A stretch of DNA of 64,000 nt from Sulfurimonas sp. HSL1-2 (lineage in GTDB: Bacteria; Campylobacterota; Campylobacteria; Campylobacterales; Sulfurimonadaceae), in the NCBI RefSeq assembly GCF_039645565.1, contig NZ_CP147914.1, positions 248,001-312,000 on the forward strand, read 5' to 3'. The notes under the pieces were generated by a model, which saw only the letters and a program-made list of their open reading frames with translations, was not told the DNA's origin and did no database searches. Position numbers and translations under genes: made by a program. This document shows positions 963 to 61,571 of this stretch, in pieces (the stretch's first letter is position 1; each line of letters begins with the position of its first letter).

Positions 963-3365
963 ATGAAGTTGACTATCTGGAACTCTCTCGCATCGAAACT
1001 GCTGTTCTCCCTGGCATTTTTCAGCCTGCTGCTGGTAAGCGGGCTGGCCTACGTCAACACGAAAATCGTCATCAGCGGCTACAAAAAACAGCTCCAGGAA
1101 CTGGTGGAACAGAAGATCGATTTCATGCTCCCCCAGCTCTCCGATGCCCTGCACAACGAGGAGTACCTTCTGGCGGAGGAGCAGCTCATCCGCTTGAGCT
1201 CCGCGCAGGTGATCAACGGGGTGCGGCTGCTCCGTAACCACGGCCGTCCCCTTGTCGTCGGCAACTTCGGCTCTCCCCACCGCCTCTTTACACTGGCCCT
1301 TCCCGTCACCAACGTCAACGGCGAAATCATCGCCTCGATGGACGTCGCGGTTTCCGACCGGAACTTCCGCGCGATGATGGAGCAGTATTTTCAGTTCCTC
1401 GCCGCGATCATCGGCGGATACGTCCTGCTGGTCGTGCTGCTGCTGCGGCTGCTCTACCGGGCTTTCATGCCGCTGCGGGAACTGACCCGGAAACTGGAGG
1501 CTTTCGACCCGAGCCACCCGGTGCCGATCGAGCTGAAAAATACCAGCGGCAGCGAAATCGGCATGATCGCCGATGCGGCGAACAAGATGAGCGACAACAT
1601 CATCCACCACGCCGACTTTATGAACGAACTGCACAAAGAGATCGAGGAGGGGCGCCAGCACCTCAAAGAGGCGCAGCAGATCGCCAGGATGGGGAGCTGG
1701 CGGATCGATACGCAGACGCACGACTGCAGTTTCAGTGACCAGATGTATGTGCTGCTGGGGATCCCGATGGACGGGATGCCGCTGACCTGGGATACACTGC
1801 TCAACGTCATTGACCCCTCGCAGCGCCAATCGTTTATCCGCGCCCTTGAAAATACGGCGCAGACCCATACCCCGTTCCGCCTGATGCATAAAATCGTCAA
1901 TGCGCACGGGGAGGCGATGCACGTGCTGACCGAGGGGAAACTGAGTCTGCGGCGCGACGGCAAGGCCTTTATTTCGGGGATCACGATGGACGTCAGCGAG
2001 CAGGCGGAGAGCCAGCAGATGATCGAAAAGCTCGCGTTCTACGATCCGCTCACCAACCTGCCGAACCGTGTCTTGATGCAGGACCGCCTGCAGAAATCGA
2101 TCAAAGACGCCAACCGCCGGGGCGAAAAACTGGGGGTCCTCTTCCTGGACCTCGACGGTTTCAAGAACGTCAACGACACCCTGGGACACACCCTGGGCGA
2201 CCGCCTGCTCAAAGAGGTGGCGGAGCGCCTCAAACGCACCCTGCGCGATTCAGACACGATCTCGCGGATCGGCGGGGACGAGTTTATCGTACTGCTGCCG
2301 CTGATCAACTCGGAAAAAGACATCACCATCGTTGCCAAGAAGATGATCGATGCCCTGCAGGAGCGCTGGGAGTTCGGGGACAAGGCGATCTTTACGACGA
2401 CGAGTATCGGGGTGGCCATCTACCCGGACCACTCCGAGGACGCCGATACGCTGATCAAGTTTGCCGACACCGCCATGTACAAGGCGAAAGAGGACGGGCG
2501 CAACCGCTACCGGTTCTACGACAAAACGATGGGGGAGACGATCCGCAAAAAACTCCAGATCGAGCACGAGATGCGCGAGGCCATCGAGACGATGGAGCAG
2601 TTCGAACTCTACTACCAGCCGAAGATCTCCCTGCGGACCGGCGCCATCATCGGTGCCGAGGCACTCATCCGCTGGAACCATCCGAAGGTCGGTACGGTCT
2701 ACCCGGACGACTTCATCCCCGTCGCAGAGCATACGGGGATGATCATCAAGATCGGGGAGTGGGTCATGCACGAGGCGGCCCGCCGCATCGAACAGTGGCG
2801 CGCCGCGGGCATTGCGCCGCTGAAACTGGCCGTCAACCTCTCCGGCCGCCAGTTCGGCAGTCCGTTACTGCTGCACCAGATCCGCACGGTGTTGCAGCGC
2901 TATGACATTGAGCCGAAATACCTGGAGTTCGAGGTCACTGAGAGCGTCTCCATGATCAGCCTTACGGAAAGCCTGAAGGTCCTTCACCAGCTCCGTGATC
3001 TCGGGGTCGGCGTGAATATCGACGACTTCGGTACGGGCTACTCCTCCCTGGCTTACCTCAAACAGTTCCCGGTCGATACGCTCAAGATCGACAAGGCGTT
3101 TATCATGAACATGCTCGAGGATCAGGATGACCGCACCATCGTCGAATCGATCGTTTCACTGAGCAAGGCGATGGGGCTGAAGATCGTTGCGGAGGGGATT
3201 GAGAGTGCCGAGCATGTCCGTCTGCTCAAGAAGCTCGGCGTCGACTACGGGCAGGGCTACTTCTTCAGCCGTCCGGTACCGTTCGGTCAGCTCGACCGCA
3301 TGTACCGCAACAACCTCGTCAAGATGAAGACGCTGCGCGAACCGGAAAAGAAACAGGCCGTCTAG
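963..3365 (+). CDS. Membrane-anchored PAS-GGDEF-EAL cyclic-di-GMP protein
   Basis: An 800-residue protein predicted to make and/or degrade cyclic di-GMP at the inner membrane. A first membrane helix lies near residues 10-32, followed by a periplasmic region to about 138, a second helix near 140-165 and a HAMP-like linker with RELTRKLEAFDP. A PAS-type segment lies near 235-350 (MGSWRIDTQTHDCSFSDQMY). The GGDEF domain follows, with intact GGDEF at 437-441, then the EAL domain with intact EAL at 566-568 and the later DDFGTGYSSL loop. Both catalytic motifs are canonical, so either or both activities are possible. The start at 963 fits the family because the first helix begins at once. The stop codon shares the palindrome CTAG with the stop of the convergent flavoprotein gene. 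Confidence 0.93.
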   Translation: MKLTIWNSLASKLLFSLAFFSLLLVSGLAYVNTKIVISGYKKQLQELVEQKIDFMLPQLSDALHNEEYLLAEEQLIRLSSAQVINGVRLLRNHGRPLVVGNFGSPHRLFTLALPVTNVNGEIIASMDVAVSDRNFRAMMEQYFQFLAAIIGGYVLLVVLLLRLLYRAFMPLRELTRKLEAFDPSHPVPIELKNTSGSEIGMIADAANKMSDNIIHHADFMNELHKEIEEGRQHLKEAQQIARMGSWRIDTQTHDCSFSDQMYVLLGIPMDGMPLTWDTLLNVIDPSQRQSFIRALENTAQTHTPFRLMHKIVNAHGEAMHVLTEGKLSLRRDGKAFISGITMDVSEQAESQQMIEKLAFYDPLTNLPNRVLMQDRLQKSIKDANRRGEKLGVLFLDLDGFKNVNDTLGHTLGDRLLKEVAERLKRTLRDSDTISRIGGDEFIVLLPLINSEKDITIVAKKMIDALQERWEFGDKAIFTTTSIGVAIYPDHSEDADTLIKFADTAMYKAKEDGRNRYRFYDKTMGETIRKKLQIEHEMREAIETMEQFELYYQPKISLRTGAIIGAEALIRWNHPKVGTVYPDDFIPVAEHTGMIIKIGEWVMHEAARRIEQWRAAGIAPLKLAVNLSGRQFGSPLLLHQIRTVLQRYDIEPKYLEFEVTESVSMISLTESLKVLHQLRDLGVGVNIDDFGTGYSSLAYLKQFPVDTLKIDKAFIMNMLEDQDDRTIVESIVSLSKAMGLKIVAEGIESAEHVRLLKKLGVDYGQGYFFSRPVPFGQLDRMYRNNLVKMKTLREPEKKQAV

Positions 3366-4540
3366 AGGCCCGGCAAGCGGGGGATCCTCCCGAGCTTGCT
3401 GTTGCGGCAGTACCATCCCCACCCTTTTTTCATCCAGTGTCCCAGGACCGGCATCGGCATCATAAAGGCTTTTTTGTCGTCGCGGAAGACGAAGCCCGCG
3501 CCGGTACCCGTATCCATGACGCAGAGGATGTTGAGGTGTTCCTGGTACCCTTTGCGTTCTACTTTCCCGGCGTCCCGCGCGGCGATGTTGAAGGCGATGT
3601 TCTTGGCCATGACCTCGGCCACGTGCCCCTGCTTCGCCCGCCACTCCGGCCCCTCCAGCGCCGCGACGTCCCCGGCGGCGTAGACGTTGCTGACCTCGCC
3701 GTCGATGATGACTTCGCTGTAGTCATTGATGGCGACGAAGCCGGCCTCATTGGTCGGGAGGTCGGACGCTTTGATGACGCCGTGGCCGTCCCCGGCGGGA
3801 ATGAACATCGTGAAGTCGGATTCCAGCTTGCTGTCATCTTCGAAGACGATGCCGTCCTCTTCGAACCGCTTGATCTTCTTGCCGAAGTGTTTGTTCAGGT
3901 CGGCCCGCTCGAACATCATGTCCATCATCCCGAGGGCCTTTTCGCCCATGCGCGCGCCCGGTTTGGGCATGGGGGCGAAGAAGGTGAGTTCGAAACGGTC
4001 GCGGATCCCTTTTTTCTTCAGCAGTTCGTGGAGGTTGAAAAAGAGCTCGAACCCGGGGCCGCCGCGCACGGCGGAGGTGTCTTTCGGGTTGCCGCCGAAG
4101 CCGAAGGCGACCTTGCCGCTCCCCTTGGCGACGAGGGCGTCGATGCGCTCCTTGATCCGCAGGGATTCGCGCGGGTCGCCGCAGATGGAGAGGGTGTTTT
4201 CGATCCCCGGGTGCTTCATCTTGTGCGCCCCGACGGCGACGACGAGGTAGTCATAATCGTCGATCACTTTGCCGGAGGTGAGGGTGACGCGGTTCGCCTT
4301 CGCCTCGATCGCTTCGACACCGTCCACGACCAGGGTAAAGCCGTGGGCATCCCGCAGTTCCTCGAGCGACACCTTGACATCGTCAAAGGAGGCTTCGCCC
4401 GTCGGGACCCAGATGGAGGTCGGATAGATGTAGAAATAATCCCGGTCGCTGACGAGCGTGACGTCATATCCTTTTTTTCGCAGATGCGTTGCCGCATCAA
4501 CCCCGGCAAACCCGCCGCCAAGCACCAAAACCTTTTTCAT
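3362..4540 (-). CDS. Sulfide:quinone oxidoreductase-like FAD flavoprotein
   Basis: A 392-residue pyridine-nucleotide-disulfide-type flavoprotein of the SQR/flavocytochrome c sulfide dehydrogenase group. The N-terminal GGGFAGVDAA Rossmann loop (about residues 8-17) and the C-terminal NVYAAGDVAAL FAD motif (about 285-295) are clear. The C-terminal GHWMKKGWGWY stretch resembles the membrane-associated tail of SQRs. Cysteines occur only at 120, 340 and 378. Two may match the first and third SQR cysteines, but the stretch where the middle redox Cys is usually found (about 150-165) has none, so sulfide oxidation by the standard mechanism is uncertain. An SD-like TAGGAG precedes the ATG. A 39-base operator-like element lies 41 bases upstream. 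It could also be an NDH-2-like enzyme. Confidence 0.8.
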   Translation of the reverse strand: MKKVLVLGGGFAGVDAATHLRKKGYDVTLVSDRDYFYIYPTSIWVPTGEASFDDVKVSLEELRDAHGFTLVVDGVEAIEAKANRVTLTSGKVIDDYDYLVVAVGAHKMKHPGIENTLSICGDPRESLRIKERIDALVAKGSGKVAFGFGGNPKDTSAVRGGPGFELFFNLHELLKKKGIRDRFELTFFAPMPKPGARMGEKALGMMDMMFERADLNKHFGKKIKRFEEDGIVFEDDSKLESDFTMFIPAGDGHGVIKASDLPTNEAGFVAINDYSEVIIDGEVSNVYAAGDVAALEGPEWRAKQGHVAEVMAKNIAFNIAARDAGKVERKGYQEHLNILCVMDTGTGAGFVFRDDKKAFMMPMPVLGHWMKKGWGWYCRNSKLGRIPRLPGL

Positions 4541-4581
4541 CGCTACTCCTATAAGCCAGTTTGATAATAATCATAATACAA

Positions 4582-4620
4582 TGACGATAAAACCAAAATA
4601 AAACGTTAATTTATTCGTCT
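4582..4620. promoter_or_regulatory. Operator-like element A, shared with the rhodanese operon promoter
   Basis: A 39-base AT-rich element starting with the half-site TGACGATAAAAC and ending with a degraded inverted copy. It matches a 39-base element at 61533-61571 at 31 of 39 positions without gaps. On the minus strand it is followed 6 bases later by TATGAT (4575-4570), a likely -10 box for the SQR-like gene, so it covers the -35 and spacer region. It lies in the divergent gap towards msrA, which might also be affected. The binding protein is unknown. Confidence 0.6.
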
Positions 4621-4762
4621 GTTTTATTGAATGCTCCGCAGGTTATCGCCGGAAAAGGGACGGTCCGTAGAGCATTGCCAAAGCACAACCGTTAGGATTA
4701 TGTGCCGGAGGGTGGGGCACCTTGAAGCTACGCTTTGGCATCATTCAGAAAAAAGGATGATG

Positions 4763-5293
4763 ATGGCGAAGGAAGTAGCGCTCCTCGGGGGCGGGTGTTT
4801 TTGGTGCATCGAGGCGGTATACCGCCGTGTCAAAGGGGTCAGCAGTGCCGTCAGCGGTTACGCAGGCGGCCAAATGGACAACCCCGATTACCGTTCGGTC
4901 TGCAGCGGGACGACGGGGCATGCGGAGGTCGTCGAGATCACCTTTGATCCCGATATCATCACCTTCGGGGAGATCCTCGATATCTTCTGGGTGATCCACG
5001 ACCCGACGACGCTGAACCGCCAGGGGGCGGACATGGGGACCCAGTACCGCTCGGTGATCTACTATCACGACGAAGTGCAGAAAGCGGAAGCCGAAGAGGC
5101 CATCGCCGAGGCGCAGGAAAGCTTTTCCGACCCGATCGTGACGGAACTCTCCCCGGCGCCGACCTTCTACCCGGCGGAAGTGTACCACCAGAACTATTTC
5201 AATCTTAACCCCGAGCAGGGCTACTGCCAGGCGGTGATCGCGCCGAAGGTACAGAAGTTTATGCGGACGTTCCGGGAGAAGCTCGATGTTTGA
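4763..5293 (+). CDS. msrA: Peptide methionine-S-sulfoxide reductase
   Basis: MsrA reduces methionine-S-sulfoxide in proteins and free peptides. The catalytic motif GCFWC is at residues 11-15 (catalytic Cys12), followed by the family segments YRRVKGVSSAVSGYAGG, HAEVVEITFDP, DPTTLNRQGADMGTQYRSVIYY and YHQNYF. There are three ATG codons in a row at 4757, 4760 and 4763. The last is preferred because AAAAGG at 4751-4756 then lies at a workable distance. The open frame extends back to 4631, but that stretch has no family similarity. At about 176 residues it is a normal single-domain MsrA. It overlaps the next gene by 8 bases, so the two are probably co-transcribed. Confidence 0.95.
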   Translation: MAKEVALLGGGCFWCIEAVYRRVKGVSSAVSGYAGGQMDNPDYRSVCSGTTGHAEVVEITFDPDIITFGEILDIFWVIHDPTTLNRQGADMGTQYRSVIYYHDEVQKAEAEEAIAEAQESFSDPIVTELSPAPTFYPAEVYHQNYFNLNPEQGYCQAVIAPKVQKFMRTFREKLDV

Positions 5294-57110: not shown

Positions 57111-58244
57111 TTAATAGTTGTGCGCATCGGGCGCGGTGATCTCTTCTTCGGTGATCTTGACCCGGTCCATCTGCCGCCATGCGTAGGCGATGTAGGCGAG
57201 GACAAAGGGCACCATCAGCGAGACGTAGCTCATCACGGTCAGCGTATAGAGGCTGCCCGAGGCATTCTCGATCGTGAGCGAGTGCTGGAGGTCGTGCGTC
57301 GAGGGGTAGAAGGCCGTGCCGTTGAAGCCGACGGCGAGCAGCACCGCCATAACGGTGAGCACGATTCCGACCCCGTTGGTCCAGGCGCAGCAGCTCTTGC
57401 CGCGGAAGACCGTGTTGAAGACCGAGAGCAGGACCATGACGACCCCGGCGAGGAACATGATGCCCACAACCGGCATCTCGATGAAGTTCCAGAAGTATTT
57501 GTTCGGCACCATCGAGACCGCTTTGGTGGCGGCATCGTAGGCAAAACCGTCCTTGAGGAAGATCCACGCGACGAAGCCGAGGAAAAAAGGCAGGAACCAG
57601 ACGATGTTGCGTTTGATCATCGTTCGGGCCTTGGCCTCGATCGGGGCATGGTCGATGCTCGAGATGAAATACATCCCGGCCGCGATGCGCACAAGGAAGA
57701 GCAGTGCGAATCCGAGCAGGTAGTTCATCGGGTTCAGCAACGCTTCGAGGCCCCTGGAAGCCCCCTGCCAGTGGACGAAGTTATTGTCATCGAGGGCGAA
57801 ATCCGCACCGCTGAAGAAGGTGCTGATGGCGATGCCGAGCAGCACGACGCCGAGGCTGCCGTTGATGTACAAGAAGGCCTCGTAGGTCTTCTGCCCCAGG
57901 ACGTTGTCGGGCTTCTTGCGGTACTCGTAGCTGACTGCCTGGATGATAAAACAGAAGAGGATGACCATCCAGACCCAGTACGCCCCGCCGAAACTCGTGG
58001 CATAAAAGAGGGGGAATGCGGCAAAGAGCGCCCCGCCGAAAAGGACCAGGGTCGTAAAGCCGAGCTCCCATTTGCGCCCCAGGGAGTTGACGAGCATCGT
58101 CTTCTCCGTTTCGTTGTCGCTGAGCTGATTCAGCAGGGTCTGTCCCCCCTGGATAAACATGATATAGACAAAGAGTCCGCCCAGCAGGCTGATGATGATC
58201 CACCAGTACTGCTGCAATTGTAAAAAGGTGAGTGCTTCAAACAT
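57111..58244 (-). CDS. cydB: Cytochrome bd ubiquinol oxidase subunit II
   Basis: A 377-residue inner-membrane subunit with eight to nine helices. The start MFEALTFLQLQQYWWIIISLLGGLFVYIMFIQGG is characteristic of this CydB group, and WAFxxxxxG-like and NGTAFYPSTHDLQHSLTIENASGS stretches are visible. The start at 58244 overlaps cydA by one base (TGATG). The open frame to 58496 is cydA out of frame. With CydA it forms a high-affinity, sulfide-tolerant oxygen reductase. Confidence 0.95.
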   Translation of the reverse strand: MFEALTFLQLQQYWWIIISLLGGLFVYIMFIQGGQTLLNQLSDNETEKTMLVNSLGRKWELGFTTLVLFGGALFAAFPLFYATSFGGAYWVWMVILFCFIIQAVSYEYRKKPDNVLGQKTYEAFLYINGSLGVVLLGIAISTFFSGADFALDDNNFVHWQGASRGLEALLNPMNYLLGFALLFLVRIAAGMYFISSIDHAPIEAKARTMIKRNIVWFLPFFLGFVAWIFLKDGFAYDAATKAVSMVPNKYFWNFIEMPVVGIMFLAGVVMVLLSVFNTVFRGKSCCAWTNGVGIVLTVMAVLLAVGFNGTAFYPSTHDLQHSLTIENASGSLYTLTVMSYVSLMVPFVLAYIAYAWRQMDRVKITEEEITAPDAHNY

Positions 58245-59782
58245 CAGTGATCTCCTCCGTCGGGTCCGATTTTGATCTGGCGGAGCATGATCTTTATCTC
58301 CGCGACGAGCAGCGCCGTAAAGAGCGCTGCGAACATCCAGAAGGTCGTCTGGACGCTGCTGCTCGAGATGTCCGTCATCGCGATGCCGACGGGCAGCAGA
58401 TCCTGCACGGCCCAGGGCTGGCGGCCGACCTCGGCGACGATCCAGCCCGCCTCGGCGGCGATGTAGCCCAGCGGGATCGACCAGATGGCGAGCCAAAGGA
58501 GTTTGCGGAAGCGGGTGATCTCGTTGGCCATCGTCAGGTAGAGCAGGGCGAGGAACAGGAGAATGAACCAGCTCCCCAGCCCGACCATGACGTGGAAGCT
58601 GTAGAAGGTCAGGGCGATCGGCGGGACGATATCCTCGGGTTTTTCGAGGTAGCCGTAGCCGAAATCGGCGATGTTGGCTTCGATGACGCCGCGCGCCTCT
58701 GCGGCAGCGGTGTCATCGCCCGCTTTCACGGCCGCTTTGTACTCCTTGAAGGCCGCCACAGCCGTTTTGCCGCGGTCGATCCGCGCCTGTGCCGGTTCGA
58801 TGCCGTGCTTCTCGTTGCCGTAGACGAGGTCGTCCAGCCCCGGCACGAAGGCGTCGATATCGTGGTAGCCCAGGAAGGAGAGGGCGTAGGGGATCTCGAT
58901 ATCGCCGTAGAACTCATGGCGGTCGTCGCCGAGCTGCTTGTCGGGGTTGAGGATACCGAAGGCGATGATGCCCGCGCGGGTCTCGCCTTTGTAGAGCCCC
59001 TCCATCGCGGCCAGTTTTACCGGCTGTTTCTGCGCGACGTTGTAGGCGCTCTCATCGCCGCTGAGCGCGAGGAAGAGCGATACGAGCAGGCCGAAGGAGG
59101 CGCCGACGACCATGCTGCGCTTGGCGATCAGAACGTCACGGTTTTTCAGCAGGTACCAGCCGGAGATCCCGACGACGAAGAGGCCGGCGATGACGTAGCC
59201 GCTGCTGATGGTGTGCAGGAACTTCGACATGGCCACCGGGGAGAGAACGACGTCCCAGAAGGAGACCATCTCGTTACGGGCGGTGTCGGGGTTGAAGGCC
59301 ATGCCGACGGGGTACTGCATCCAGCCGTTGGCGACGAGGATCCAGAGCGCGGAGAGGTTCGAGCCGATCGCGACGAGCCAGGTGGAGAGGAGGTGAAAGC
59401 CTTTGCTCACCTTGTCCCAGCCGAAGAACATGACGGCGAAGAAGGTCGACTCCATGAAGAAGGCGAGGATCCCCTCTACCGCCAGCGGTGCGCCGAAGAT
59501 GTCGCCGACGAACCAGGAGTAGTTGGCCCAGTTGGTCCCGAACTCGAACTCCATGATCAGCCCCGTGGCGACGCCGACGGCGAAGTTGATGGCGAAGAGC
59601 GTCATCCAGAACTTCGTCGCCCGCTTCCACTGCGGGTCGTTGGTGCGGACATAGAGGGTCTCCATGATCGCGACGATAAAGGAGAGCCCCAGCGTCAGCG
59701 GGACGAACAGGAAGTGGTAGATCGCCGTCAGGGCAAACTGGGCCCGTGCCCAGTCAACGCTTGCGGCCGTTTCATACAGCAT
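58244..59782 (-). CDS. cydA: Cytochrome bd ubiquinol oxidase subunit I
   Basis: A 512-residue subunit that binds the b and d haems. The start MLYETAASVDWARAQFALTAIYHFLFVPLTLGLSF contains His23, the likely axial ligand of the d/b595 site. The later AGWIVAEVGRQPWAVQDLLP stretch is diagnostic. The quinol-binding loop region is present between about residues 240 and 360. AAAGGAAAAATA precedes the ATG. A 254-base gap rich in inverted repeats separates it from the upstream DUF4492 gene. Confidence 0.97.
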   Translation of the reverse strand: MLYETAASVDWARAQFALTAIYHFLFVPLTLGLSFIVAIMETLYVRTNDPQWKRATKFWMTLFAINFAVGVATGLIMEFEFGTNWANYSWFVGDIFGAPLAVEGILAFFMESTFFAVMFFGWDKVSKGFHLLSTWLVAIGSNLSALWILVANGWMQYPVGMAFNPDTARNEMVSFWDVVLSPVAMSKFLHTISSGYVIAGLFVVGISGWYLLKNRDVLIAKRSMVVGASFGLLVSLFLALSGDESAYNVAQKQPVKLAAMEGLYKGETRAGIIAFGILNPDKQLGDDRHEFYGDIEIPYALSFLGYHDIDAFVPGLDDLVYGNEKHGIEPAQARIDRGKTAVAAFKEYKAAVKAGDDTAAAEARGVIEANIADFGYGYLEKPEDIVPPIALTFYSFHVMVGLGSWFILLFLALLYLTMANEITRFRKLLWLAIWSIPLGYIAAEAGWIVAEVGRQPWAVQDLLPVGIAMTDISSSSVQTTFWMFAALFTALLVAEIKIMLRQIKIGPDGGDH

Positions 59783-59812
59783 TATTTTTCCTTTGATTTT
59801 ATTTCATAAACT

Positions 59813-60023
59813 AAAAGGGACCCTATCCCTTTTGCCGCGGGATGAACCAAGTCCATCCCGCTTTCGCTCGCCGCTAAGGCGCTGAAGCACAAAGAAGCTG
59901 TCGGCTTCTTCGTGGAGCACCATGGGCGCGTGGATCTATCGAAAATGGATTTTACGATGCATCAATGCCCGATTTTCGGCATGCCTTGCCTCTTGATGGG
60001 GCGCAGGGGTGTCAAAATCGGGC
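59813..60023. repeat. Four inverted repeats in the DUF4492-cydA interval
   Basis: The gap of 254 bases (59783-60036) has no credible gene. It holds four possible stems: AAAAGGGA/TCCCTTTT at 59813-59833, GCGGGATG/CATCCCGC at 59837-59861, an 11-pair stem with one mismatch at 59888-59914 (CACAAAGAAGC/GCTTCTTCGTG), and a wide 10-base inverted repeat GCCCGATTTT/AAAATCGGGC at 59967-60023. On the minus strand the first is followed by a T-rich stretch (TCCCTTTT, then AGTTT). It may be an attenuator, a structured leader, an RNA-processing site or remains of a mobile sequence. Confidence 0.5.
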
Positions 60024-60036
60024 GTGAATCGTGTGC

Positions 60037-60246
60037 TTACGGTGTGTTCATCAATTGCCGGCTCACGAACTCCTGCCGTGCTTCGTCACTGTCGAAGCGG
60101 TTTTGCAGGGTGTCGCTGAAAAAGAGGACTTTGATCACACCGAAAAGAATGAGCAGTTTGACAGCCACGACGGTCCAGAGCGTGCGGCCCAGCCGCATGG
60201 CGCTGAACCCGTCACGGTAAAAACGGTAAAGGGCTGCCAGTTTCAT
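60037..60246 (-). CDS. DUF4492 small membrane protein
   Basis: A 69-residue protein (MKLAALYRFYRDGFSAMRLGRTLWTVVAVKLLILFGVIKVLFFSDTLQNRF...) with one helix (about 24-44) and the DUF4492 pattern FYRDGFxxMxLGRxLW. Genes of this family stand directly upstream of cydA in Campylobacterota and Bacteroidetes and are presumed to assist bd oxidase assembly. Here a 254-base structured gap separates them. GGAAAAAAAA is a modest ribosome site. It is 13 bases from the NifX-type gene. Confidence 0.85.
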   Translation of the reverse strand: MKLAALYRFYRDGFSAMRLGRTLWTVVAVKLLILFGVIKVLFFSDTLQNRFDSDEARQEFVSRQLMNTP

Positions 60247-60259
60247 TTTTTTTCCTTGT

Positions 60260-60625
60260 TCAGTGGGTGGAACAGGTCCCTTTGCCGCCGAGGGCGCCGA
60301 GGGCGTTCTGCATCAGGCGCTCGACGGAGTCGCGTACCGTCGCCGATTCGCGGTCCACATAGACGGAGAGTCCCGCCTGTTCAAATCCTTTGGCCGGGGA
60401 GCCGCCGATCCCCGAGACAACCAGGGCGTCGGGGTGCAGGGCCATGATATTGGCGACGGCGTTGCCGCAGCCCCCGGCATCGTGGCCCGGGTTGACGATT
60501 CCTTCGACATCCATTATACGATTATTTTCGACGGTGACGAGGGTATAGAACTTCGCCTTGCCGAAGTGCGCCCCGCGGCGGGAGAGGAACCCCATGTCCT
60601 CATCGGTAGGGAATACGATTTTCAT
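60260..60625 (-). CDS. NifX/NafY-type dinitrogenase cofactor-like domain protein
   Basis: A 121-residue protein of the dinitrogenase iron-molybdenum cofactor (PF02579-type) family: MKIVFPTDEDMGFLSRRGAHFGKAKFYTLVTVENNRI ... ALVVSGIGGSPAKGFEQAGLSVYV. Stand-alone members bind or carry metal clusters and are common near redox operons, not just nitrogen fixation genes. Cys and His at its end (KGTCSTH) could bind metal. It overlaps the previous gene by four bases. Confidence 0.85.
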   Translation of the reverse strand: MKIVFPTDEDMGFLSRRGAHFGKAKFYTLVTVENNRIMDVEGIVNPGHDAGGCGNAVANIMALHPDALVVSGIGGSPAKGFEQAGLSVYVDRESATVRDSVERLMQNALGALGGKGTCSTH

Positions 60626-61020
60626 GCTGCTTTCTCCTCCAGGTAGTTTTTGACGGCTTCGTCGGCAGTTTCGCCGTGTTTTTCGCGGATCTTCTTGACG
60701 GTGATGCCGGCGCGGTCGACCGCCTCTTTCATATGCGTTCCGATCATGCGTACGAGCATCATCTCGACGCCGGCGAGGTTGGAGAGGCTCTTGCCGTGCC
60801 CCTTGATATGTTCCTCGTCTTCGGGGTGGTGATGCCCGTGGTGGCCGCCGTGCTCTTCATGGTCATGGTGGTCGAGATGATCGTCATGGGCATGCCCGCT
60901 CTGCGGCGCTTCGACGATCCGCTCAAATACGGTGTCGTCGAAAAGAGCGTAGTAGGGGGCCTGCCCCGTCCGTTTGACGATTTTGAGGTTTTCACCCTCT
61001 ACGGGGACTGCGATTTTCAT
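60622..61020 (-). CDS. NifX-type protein with His-rich loop
   Basis: A 132-residue protein that starts like a cofactor-binding NifX-type domain (MKIAVPVEGENLKIVKRTGQAPYYALFDDTVFERIVEAP) and then has a His/Asp-rich loop (about residues 43-73, HAHDDHLDHHDHEEHGGHHGHHHPEDEEHIKGHG). It then resumes SNLAGVEMMLVRMIGTHMKEAVDRAGITV. The loop would bind several metal ions, such as nickel, zinc or cobalt. It overlaps both neighbours by four bases, so it belongs to the rhodanese operon. Confidence 0.82.
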   Translation of the reverse strand: MKIAVPVEGENLKIVKRTGQAPYYALFDDTVFERIVEAPQSGHAHDDHLDHHDHEEHGGHHGHHHPEDEEHIKGHGKSLSNLAGVEMMLVRMIGTHMKEAVDRAGITVKKIREKHGETADEAVKNYLEEKAA

Positions 61021-61490
61021 TTTTCATCCTTTAACGGTGCGTTTTTGGTCGTATCGGAAGCGGCGAGCGCGACGATGCCCCCTTTGAGCACCTGCACGTT
61101 CTTGATTCCGATCATCTTCAGCCCCATGGCCGCCATCGTCGCTCTACTTCCGGAGTAGCAGACGATGACGATCGGGCGGTCAGTGGGGAGGGCGTCGAGG
61201 TTCGGTTTTTCGAACAGATGCTCGACGGGGACGTGTCTGGAGCCTGCACCGCCCAGACCGACGACGGAGGCTTCCCCGTCGGTCCGGATGTCGAGCAGGA
61301 GCATCGGTTTGGCTTCGCGCAGCATCTTCATGACGTCGTCGGCTTTGACGAAGAGCGTCGATTCTGCACACGCCTTTTGGGTCATATGGGAGAAGAAGCC
61401 GTTGAACTCTGCGGCCTTGGCAGTGTCATAGGCAAAGGCCGAAGTGGTCAGTGCCGCAGCTGCGATCAGGGTCAATATGGATTTATTCAT
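61017..61490 (-). CDS. Periplasmic rhodanese-like sulfurtransferase
   Basis: A 157-residue exported rhodanese. It has a signal peptide (about 1-20, MNKSILTLIAAAALTTSAFA) and a rhodanese domain with LLLDIRTDGEASVVGLGGAGSRHVPVEHLF and active-site Cys111 in VIVCYSGSRATMAA. It would carry or transfer persulfide sulfur in the periplasm. AAGGTGGTGTAA precedes the ATG. It is the first gene of the rhodanese-NifX-NifX-DUF4492 unit that leads to cydAB. Confidence 0.92.
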   Translation of the reverse strand: MNKSILTLIAAAALTTSAFAYDTAKAAEFNGFFSHMTQKACAESTLFVKADDVMKMLREAKPMLLLDIRTDGEASVVGLGGAGSRHVPVEHLFEKPNLDALPTDRPIVIVCYSGSRATMAAMGLKMIGIKNVQVLKGGIVALAASDTTKNAPLKDEK

Positions 61491-61532
61491 TTACACCACC
61501 TTATAAAAAAGATCTGACAGCATTATAATACC

Positions 61533-61571
61533 TGACGATTAAACCAAAATAAAAATATAGTTTTATCGTCA
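61533..61571. promoter_or_regulatory. Operator-like element B, 12-base inverted repeat at the rhodanese promoter
   Basis: TGACGATTAAAC (61533-61544) and the inverse of TGACGATAAAAC (61560-61571) match at 11 of 12 positions around a 15-base spacer. On the minus strand a TATAAT -10 box (61527-61522) begins 5 bases after it. The element agrees with the one at 4582-4620 at 31 of 39 positions, and both end 41-42 bases before a gene start. Confidence 0.65.

Follow-up and report, generated by a model that had tools for sequence, protein, structure and literature searches.

Transposon resolvases that double as repressors are already known. The Tn3 resolvase binds and represses its own promoter region, and TnpR of the Tn3/gamma-delta type represses both tnpR and tnpA from dimer sites that contain the promoters (PMC7157771). 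A review of domesticated mobile-element genes deals with Xre and RHH factors, and those of its passages that matched a term search name no serine-recombinase-derived factor (PMC8987985). Orthologs of ArcA, FNR and NarP are absent from the Campylobacterota according to a 2019 review of respiration in this group, which adds that even C. jejuni has no known oxygen-responsive regulator and makes no mention of a recombinase-type regulator of the kind considered here (PMC6682613).

Here, a 64,000-nucleotide stretch of the Sulfurimonas sp. HSL1-2 genome (hereafter the window) was analysed together with the rest of the genome and with related genomes. We propose, with a probability of roughly 85% and from sequence comparison, that a catalytically dead protein with a recombinase fold governs the regulon to which two elements of the window belong, acting through a 39-bp operator as a repressor whose signal would be read by cysteines. 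The features of the two loci are as follows.

57111..58220, minus strand: cydB, cytochrome bd oxidase subunit II (Pfam, E 2.6e-67)
58244..59782, minus strand: cydA, cytochrome bd oxidase subunit I (NCBIfam, E 1e-141), 254 bp past the DUF4492 gene
60037..60246, minus strand: DUF4492 small membrane protein, 69 aa (Pfam, E 5e-25)
60260..60625, minus strand: NifX/NafY-like protein 2 (Pfam, E 9e-13)
60622..61020, minus strand: NifX/NafY-like (Nitro_FeMo-Co) protein 1 with a His-rich loop (Pfam, E 2.5e-7), overlapping the rhodanese stop
61017..61490, minus strand: rhodanese, secreted-type, single-domain, 157 aa (Pfam Rhodanese, E 1.9e-9)
61522..61527, minus strand: -10 box TATAAT of the rhodanese promoter, at the same position in orthologs
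61533..61571, minus strand: predicted operator 2, a 39-bp near-perfect palindrome before the rhodanese operon, 0 mismatches to the consensus
3362..4540, minus strand: SQR/FCSD-like FAD oxidoreductase, 392 aa (Pfam Pyr_redox_2, E 1.2e-20)
4570..4575, minus strand: probable -10 box TATGAT of the flavoprotein promoter (alternative TATTAT, 4573-4578); across the family the -10 lies 5-8 bases past the operator
4582..4620, minus strand: predicted operator 1, a 39-bp imperfect palindrome before the SQR-like flavoprotein gene, 0-1 mismatches to the consensus

An earlier, sequence-only reading of the window had paired these elements on the strength of an ungapped agreement at 31 of 39 bases, a distance of 41-42 bases to minus-strand start codons and a -10 box 5-6 bases further on. 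Recomputation returned the same 31/39 for 4582-4620 and 61533-61571, the gaps to the minus-strand ATG measured 41 and 42 bases, and -10-like hexamers begin on the transcribed strand 5 bases past element 2 (TATAAT, 61527-61522) and 6 bases past element 1 (TATGAT, 4575-4570, with the alternative TATTAT at 3). The identical 12-base half-site that it had placed in opposite arms is likewise there: TGACGATAAAAC is part of element 1's left arm, and the right arm of element 2 contains its reverse complement. Each element is a palindrome, with arms matching at 11/12 positions in element 2, which reads TGACGATWAAAC-N15-GTTTTATCGTCA, and at 8/12 in element 1; a minus-strand value of 27/39 against element 1 is element 2 read in reverse. 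Apart from element 2, the window 39-mers closest to element 1 share 20-22 bases with it. Two copies of the 22-base core are present in the window (0.00 expected from shuffles), and the full 39-base pattern, searched through the whole genome with at most 3 mismatches, was found in these two places only (reversed control, 0).

All seven same-genus genomes that have the candidate regulator described below keep operator 1 before their copy of the gene (7/7). The closest solved relative of its flavoprotein is the sulfide:quinone reductase 3hyv (E 6.6e-32); against the NCBIfam SQR models the protein scored far under every cut-off (82 bits vs 525). A methionine sulfoxide reductase gene (MsrA, window 4631-5293) diverges from the flavoprotein gene across operator 1, and in several other genera the flavoprotein gene is flanked by MsrA or ketopantoate-reductase-like genes. 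Operator 2 is kept across the genus and also stands before rhodanese or nifX genes in other genera; orthologs of NifX/NafY-like protein 2 alone bear an operator in some of these (L125, L198). The operator 2 run comprises the rhodanese, two NifX-like proteins and DUF4492, and continues in the same direction, 254 bp on, to cydA and cydB, so the terminal oxidase may be controlled by operator 2. The gene order is preserved in same-genus loci. The 254 bp between DUF4492 and cydA (window 59783-60036) hold no assigned gene and may carry a cyd promoter of its own or an attenuator. In NifX-like protein 1 (60622-61020) a long insertion rich in His, Asp and Glu probably forms a metal-binding loop.

The earlier reading had proposed a genome-wide search for the pattern, and this was carried out. 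The palindrome TGACGAWWAAA-N17-TTTWWTCGTCA (39 bp) has five copies in the 2.52-Mb single-contig genome (C1):

C1:233959: site 1, abutting the ATG of the gene for a 218-aa protein, which is followed by ccoG
C1:252582 and C1:309533: sites 2 and 3, the two elements of the window
C1:885619: site 4, 78 bp before the gene for a 65-aa membrane protein beginning MSEPTL
C1:1923099: site 5, weaker (3 mismatches) and less certain, between a true SQR gene and genes for a small secreted protein and a DUF3373 porin

Most of the genus has four of the five sites at corresponding genes, and the weaker fifth also recurs in most of it. With at most 3 mismatches, the palindrome is present in 169/228 genomes of the family and in 16/18 genera. 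Beyond the window's own genus it stands before orthologs of the flavoprotein, rhodanese, NifX and 65-aa protein genes and of genes for di-haem cytochromes c, and, in single cases, before genes for a SLAC1 channel and a weakly TusA-like protein. The predicted conserved targets are the regulator-ccoG operon, the SQR-like flavoprotein, rhodanese-nifX-nifX-DUF4492-cydAB, the 65-aa membrane protein and the cytochromes c, with the SQR-like flavoprotein and the rhodanese among the most frequent. Outside the genus the 22-base core alone gave scattered random matches, so that the palindrome was required, and a pattern of 41-bp length, used as a spacing control, gave noise only. At 3 mismatches the loose pattern is noisy in A/T-rich genomes (controls up to 12), and the main counts come from a tighter pattern. 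Chance occurrence at random coding sites, which the earlier reading had named as the observation to fear, is a low background, as judged from reversed-pattern controls and from genomes that lack the regulator.

An M48 peptidase and a neighbouring membrane protein of about 100 aa were at one stage taken as the targets of site 4 and were dropped in favour of the 65-aa protein (L117:4236-4433), which is the better candidate. Proteins of this type (L117:4236-4433, L200:3609-3800, L266:5322-5537) have 63-71 aa, a single membrane span and (S)EPTLxxIxDY at the N-terminus; none matched a Pfam family over its cut-off. They are among the commonest targets, lie within the ccoG operon in some families, and could represent a cbb3 oxidase factor that has no name as yet.

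The search for a co-occurring regulator gene led to the protein of about 218 aa encoded directly upstream of ccoG (G000:C1:233998-234651), about 14 kb outside the window. Its gene was found in 140/228 genomes of the family, and more distant forms occur in much of the order; named relatives come from Sulfuricurvum and from other Campylobacterales/Helicobacteraceae MAGs. All 20 of the distant homologs fetched from other families lie immediately 5' of ccoG, in operons that continue with the flavoprotein (plus DUF6858) in several families and with nifX and the 65-aa protein in others. These operons tie the regulator, independently of the motif, to genes that have separate operators in the window's family.

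Several lines of evidence suggest that this protein has a serine-recombinase fold, with a resolvase-like N-terminal domain, a GRPKGSxSxSKFD arm and a resolvase-type helix-turn-helix. A profile search of the PDB returned gamma-delta resolvase (E 4e-7), and the AlphaFold model (pLDDT 78) has gamma-delta/Tn3 resolvase as its best Foldseek matches (4.4e-7; 2gm4/5cy1/1gdt, E <=4.4e-6). With Pfam Resolvase the protein scores 22.3 bits, just under the cut-off of 23.3, and its distant homologs lie above it (27-41 bits); HTH_7 was over cut-off in four of the loci (L261, L263, L270, L278). The best NCBIfam match is the Mpi family invertase PRK13413 (E 3e-12; 46.7 bits vs a cut-off of 272). Neither ArsR, CsoR nor CRP folds were matched; the profile and fold matches were serine recombinases and otherwise weak response-regulator HTH hits.

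In an alignment of 54 homologs, in which the gamma-delta sequence served as a guide only, the fold resting on the PDB profile and Foldseek matches, the catalytic Ser of YxRVS is present in 0/54; it is Asp in 34/34 family members and other residues elsewhere. The second active-site motif, D/S-R-L-G-R, is also absent, with W-V-L-S and variants in its place. Having lost both, the regulator is expected not to cut DNA. Conservation is highest in the DNA-binding arm and HTH (54/54 for GRP and for the core HTH residues), and Cys88 and the C-terminal Cys211 are invariant (54/54). Loss of catalysis with retention of DNA binding and of two cysteines is the pattern that would be expected of a domesticated regulator sensing thiols or metals.

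Compared with Tn3/gamma-delta TnpR, the regulator shares the predicted fold and, as proposed here, dimer sites that contain promoters and repression of its own gene (PMC7157771). It differs in lacking the catalytic serine and RLGR, in its extra C-terminal Cys tail, in being encoded chromosomally beside ccoG with no transposon seen, and in having its sites before scattered housekeeping respiration genes. The DNA invertases (Mpi/Hin/Gin) are similar in that they provide the best NCBIfam match and that one of them, the L182 invertase, aligns end to end at 29%; unlike them, the regulator lacks the YIRVS and SRLGR motifs and about 11 residues before the GRPKG arm. That invertase (L182:2365-2979, genome G161; also G081:C31) has Ser at the catalytic position, is probably active and belongs to the same bacterial family. 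Among the catalytic relatives seen it is the closest, with Cys88 and no C-terminal Cys tail. SqrR/BigR, CstR and FisR resemble the regulator in a possible use of two cysteines and in SQR-like and rhodanese targets, whereas both its operator and its fold are unrelated to theirs. SqrR/BigR has an ArsR fold, CstR a CsoR fold, and FisR is a sigma54 activator. Control of terminal oxidases by FNR/Anr/ArcA involves similar targets (cbb3 accessory genes, bd oxidase), but the regulator is not homologous to these proteins.

The earlier reading had inferred a common operator for one sulfur-responsive regulator. The common operator has strong support, and a specific protein can be assigned to it; sulfur is only one of the possible signals, since oxygen/redox or copper fit equally a regulon that has the regulator-ccoG (cbb3 oxidase/copper) operon at its centre. 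CcoG acts as a cupric reductase in cbb3 maturation (PMC8267372), and every distant regulator examined is paired with ccoG. Together with the presence of cydAB downstream of operator 2, and with two invariant cysteines that could bind Cu(I) or a dimer-bridging Fe-S cluster or form a disulfide, this pairing gives even odds to a signal that is oxygen/redox state or copper, not reactive sulfur, in a regulon that would balance the cbb3 (copper) against the bd (copper-free) oxidase. Against it, the SQR-like flavoprotein and the rhodanese are among the commonest targets, which would fit sulfide or polysulfide. Reactive sulfur, oxygen/redox and copper thus all fit the target set.

The operator spans about -17 to -57 (operator 1, roughly -17 to -56) and straddles the -35, with the -10 lying 5-8 bp downstream. 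In most genera the flavoprotein promoters carry TTGAC inside the operator, 17 bp from the -10, and TTGAC also lies inside the operator at the regulator's own promoters. In most genera of the family (L132, L133, L143, L168, L170) a second operator is found 52 bp downstream of the first at the regulator gene, where it covers the ribosome-binding site and start codon. With the -35 within the operator and a second own-gene operator over the start, steric repression is the best reading. A dimer would bind two half-sites of 11-12 bp, TGACGATWAAA, 27 bp apart centre to centre, and, straddling the -35 box, would shut the promoter; the half-site presumably resembles that of Tn3-type res. Classical resolvase dimer sites measure 25-34 bp, and the greater length of the 39-bp operator counts against a recombinase-derived regulator. 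The regulator would repress its own gene through the first site and, in most genera of the family, also through the second. The 52 bp between them equal five helical turns, and this spacing might, speculatively, allow two dimers to meet in the style of a resolvase synapse. A chemical signal acting via Cys88 and Cys211 would release the protein, and release would jointly adjust ccoG (cbb3 oxidase assembly), cytochrome bd, the SQR-like flavoprotein, rhodanese/NifX and the cytochromes c.

The same regulator might instead be an activator of the class II or MerR-like kind, which would bind over the spacer or the -35 and there recruit RNA polymerase or reshape it. The rhodanese, nifX and cytochrome promoters have no consensus -35, and most keep the operator at a fixed 5-6 bp from the -10, which would suit such a mechanism; however, the good -35 inside the operator of the flavoprotein and regulator promoters and the second own-gene site over the start codon suit repression, and we consider activation unlikely. 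Repression from a position straddling the -35 is probably how the domesticated, catalytically dead recombinase controls the terminal-oxidase and sulfide-linked genes.

The pairing of gene and operator was assessed on regulator upstreams retrieved by protein match alone, the motif not being consulted (operator spacing 38-40). With at most 3 mismatches, an operator precedes the regulator gene in 63/63 distinct upstreams of the family and in 19/20 distant homologs of other families, compared with 0.24% (family) and 0.4% (distant) of shuffled upstreams. At least two sites were present in 119/140 family genomes with the gene vs 8/88 without it (p 7e-32) and, within the largest genus, in 53/64 vs 4/71 (p 1e-21), p-values that are inflated by shared ancestry; the gene-less genomes fall in several separate genera. 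Beyond the family the figures were 43/126 with the gene and 3/227 without it, or 16/227 counting a recurrent match of one genus. That match is a conserved stretch, TTACGAATAAACACC...TTTATCGTCA (e.g. G522:C1:1734801-1734839), in 13 genomes of one f11 genus without strong regulator homologs, and is probably a coding coincidence. Family genomes without the gene have a mean of 0.51 sites, close to the reversed control pattern. As exceptions, 4 genomes with the gene have 0 sites for the tested pattern and 8 without it have at least two; among the gene-less exceptions with three sites, 4 have assemblies <=90% complete.

In 20 near-complete gene-less genomes ccoG is kept in 20/20 and an operator before ccoG was found in 0/20; the flavoprotein is kept in 12 of the same 20 genomes, with an operator before it in 0/12. 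A count of 20/20 flavoprotein promoters with an operator is biased, as the motif itself had served to retrieve these loci, and we rely on the protein-fetched test and the 7/7 genus genomes. A conserved operator at the regulator's own promoter, and sites elsewhere that depend on the presence of its gene, are what would be expected of an autoregulated transcription factor with a palindromic operator.

The resolvase-like gene and ccoG share one operator-bearing promoter and so belong to the regulon regardless of what binds there, and some other transcription factor could bind the operator, with the resolvase-like gene as just a target. This we regard as improbable: loss of the gene goes with loss of the operators at other promoters, while the target genes remain, and a different binder would leave this unexplained. 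Moreover, the pairing of gene and operator persists across several families of the order, and the half-site layout (outer TGAC, inner A/T) fits the arm and HTH of the resolvase fold. That the two window elements are alike by chance, or through a common A/T-rich promoter feature, as their A/T-rich core and their position within promoters might suggest, has a negligible probability and is refuted by the shuffle expectation of 0.00, the low reversed-pattern controls, a conservation across genera that is specific to spacing and the co-occurrence of the sites with the regulator.

Literature searches, which covered sources other than subscription journals, found no resolvase-derived regulator, and a chromosomal, catalytically dead resolvase-type family that runs a metabolic regulon seems undescribed in the searchable literature. 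It is an evenly balanced possibility that a new family of dedicated transcription factors, arisen from a serine recombinase that was domesticated and lost catalysis, supplies the missing redox/sulfur control of terminal oxidases in a large part of the Campylobacterota, sensing via two invariant cysteines and possibly pairing two DNA-bound dimers, synapse-like, to lock its own promoter. If true, this would be a recombinase turned dedicated regulator. A named candidate gene, a predicted operator and a list of predicted targets now exist for respiratory control in free-living sulfide oxidisers.
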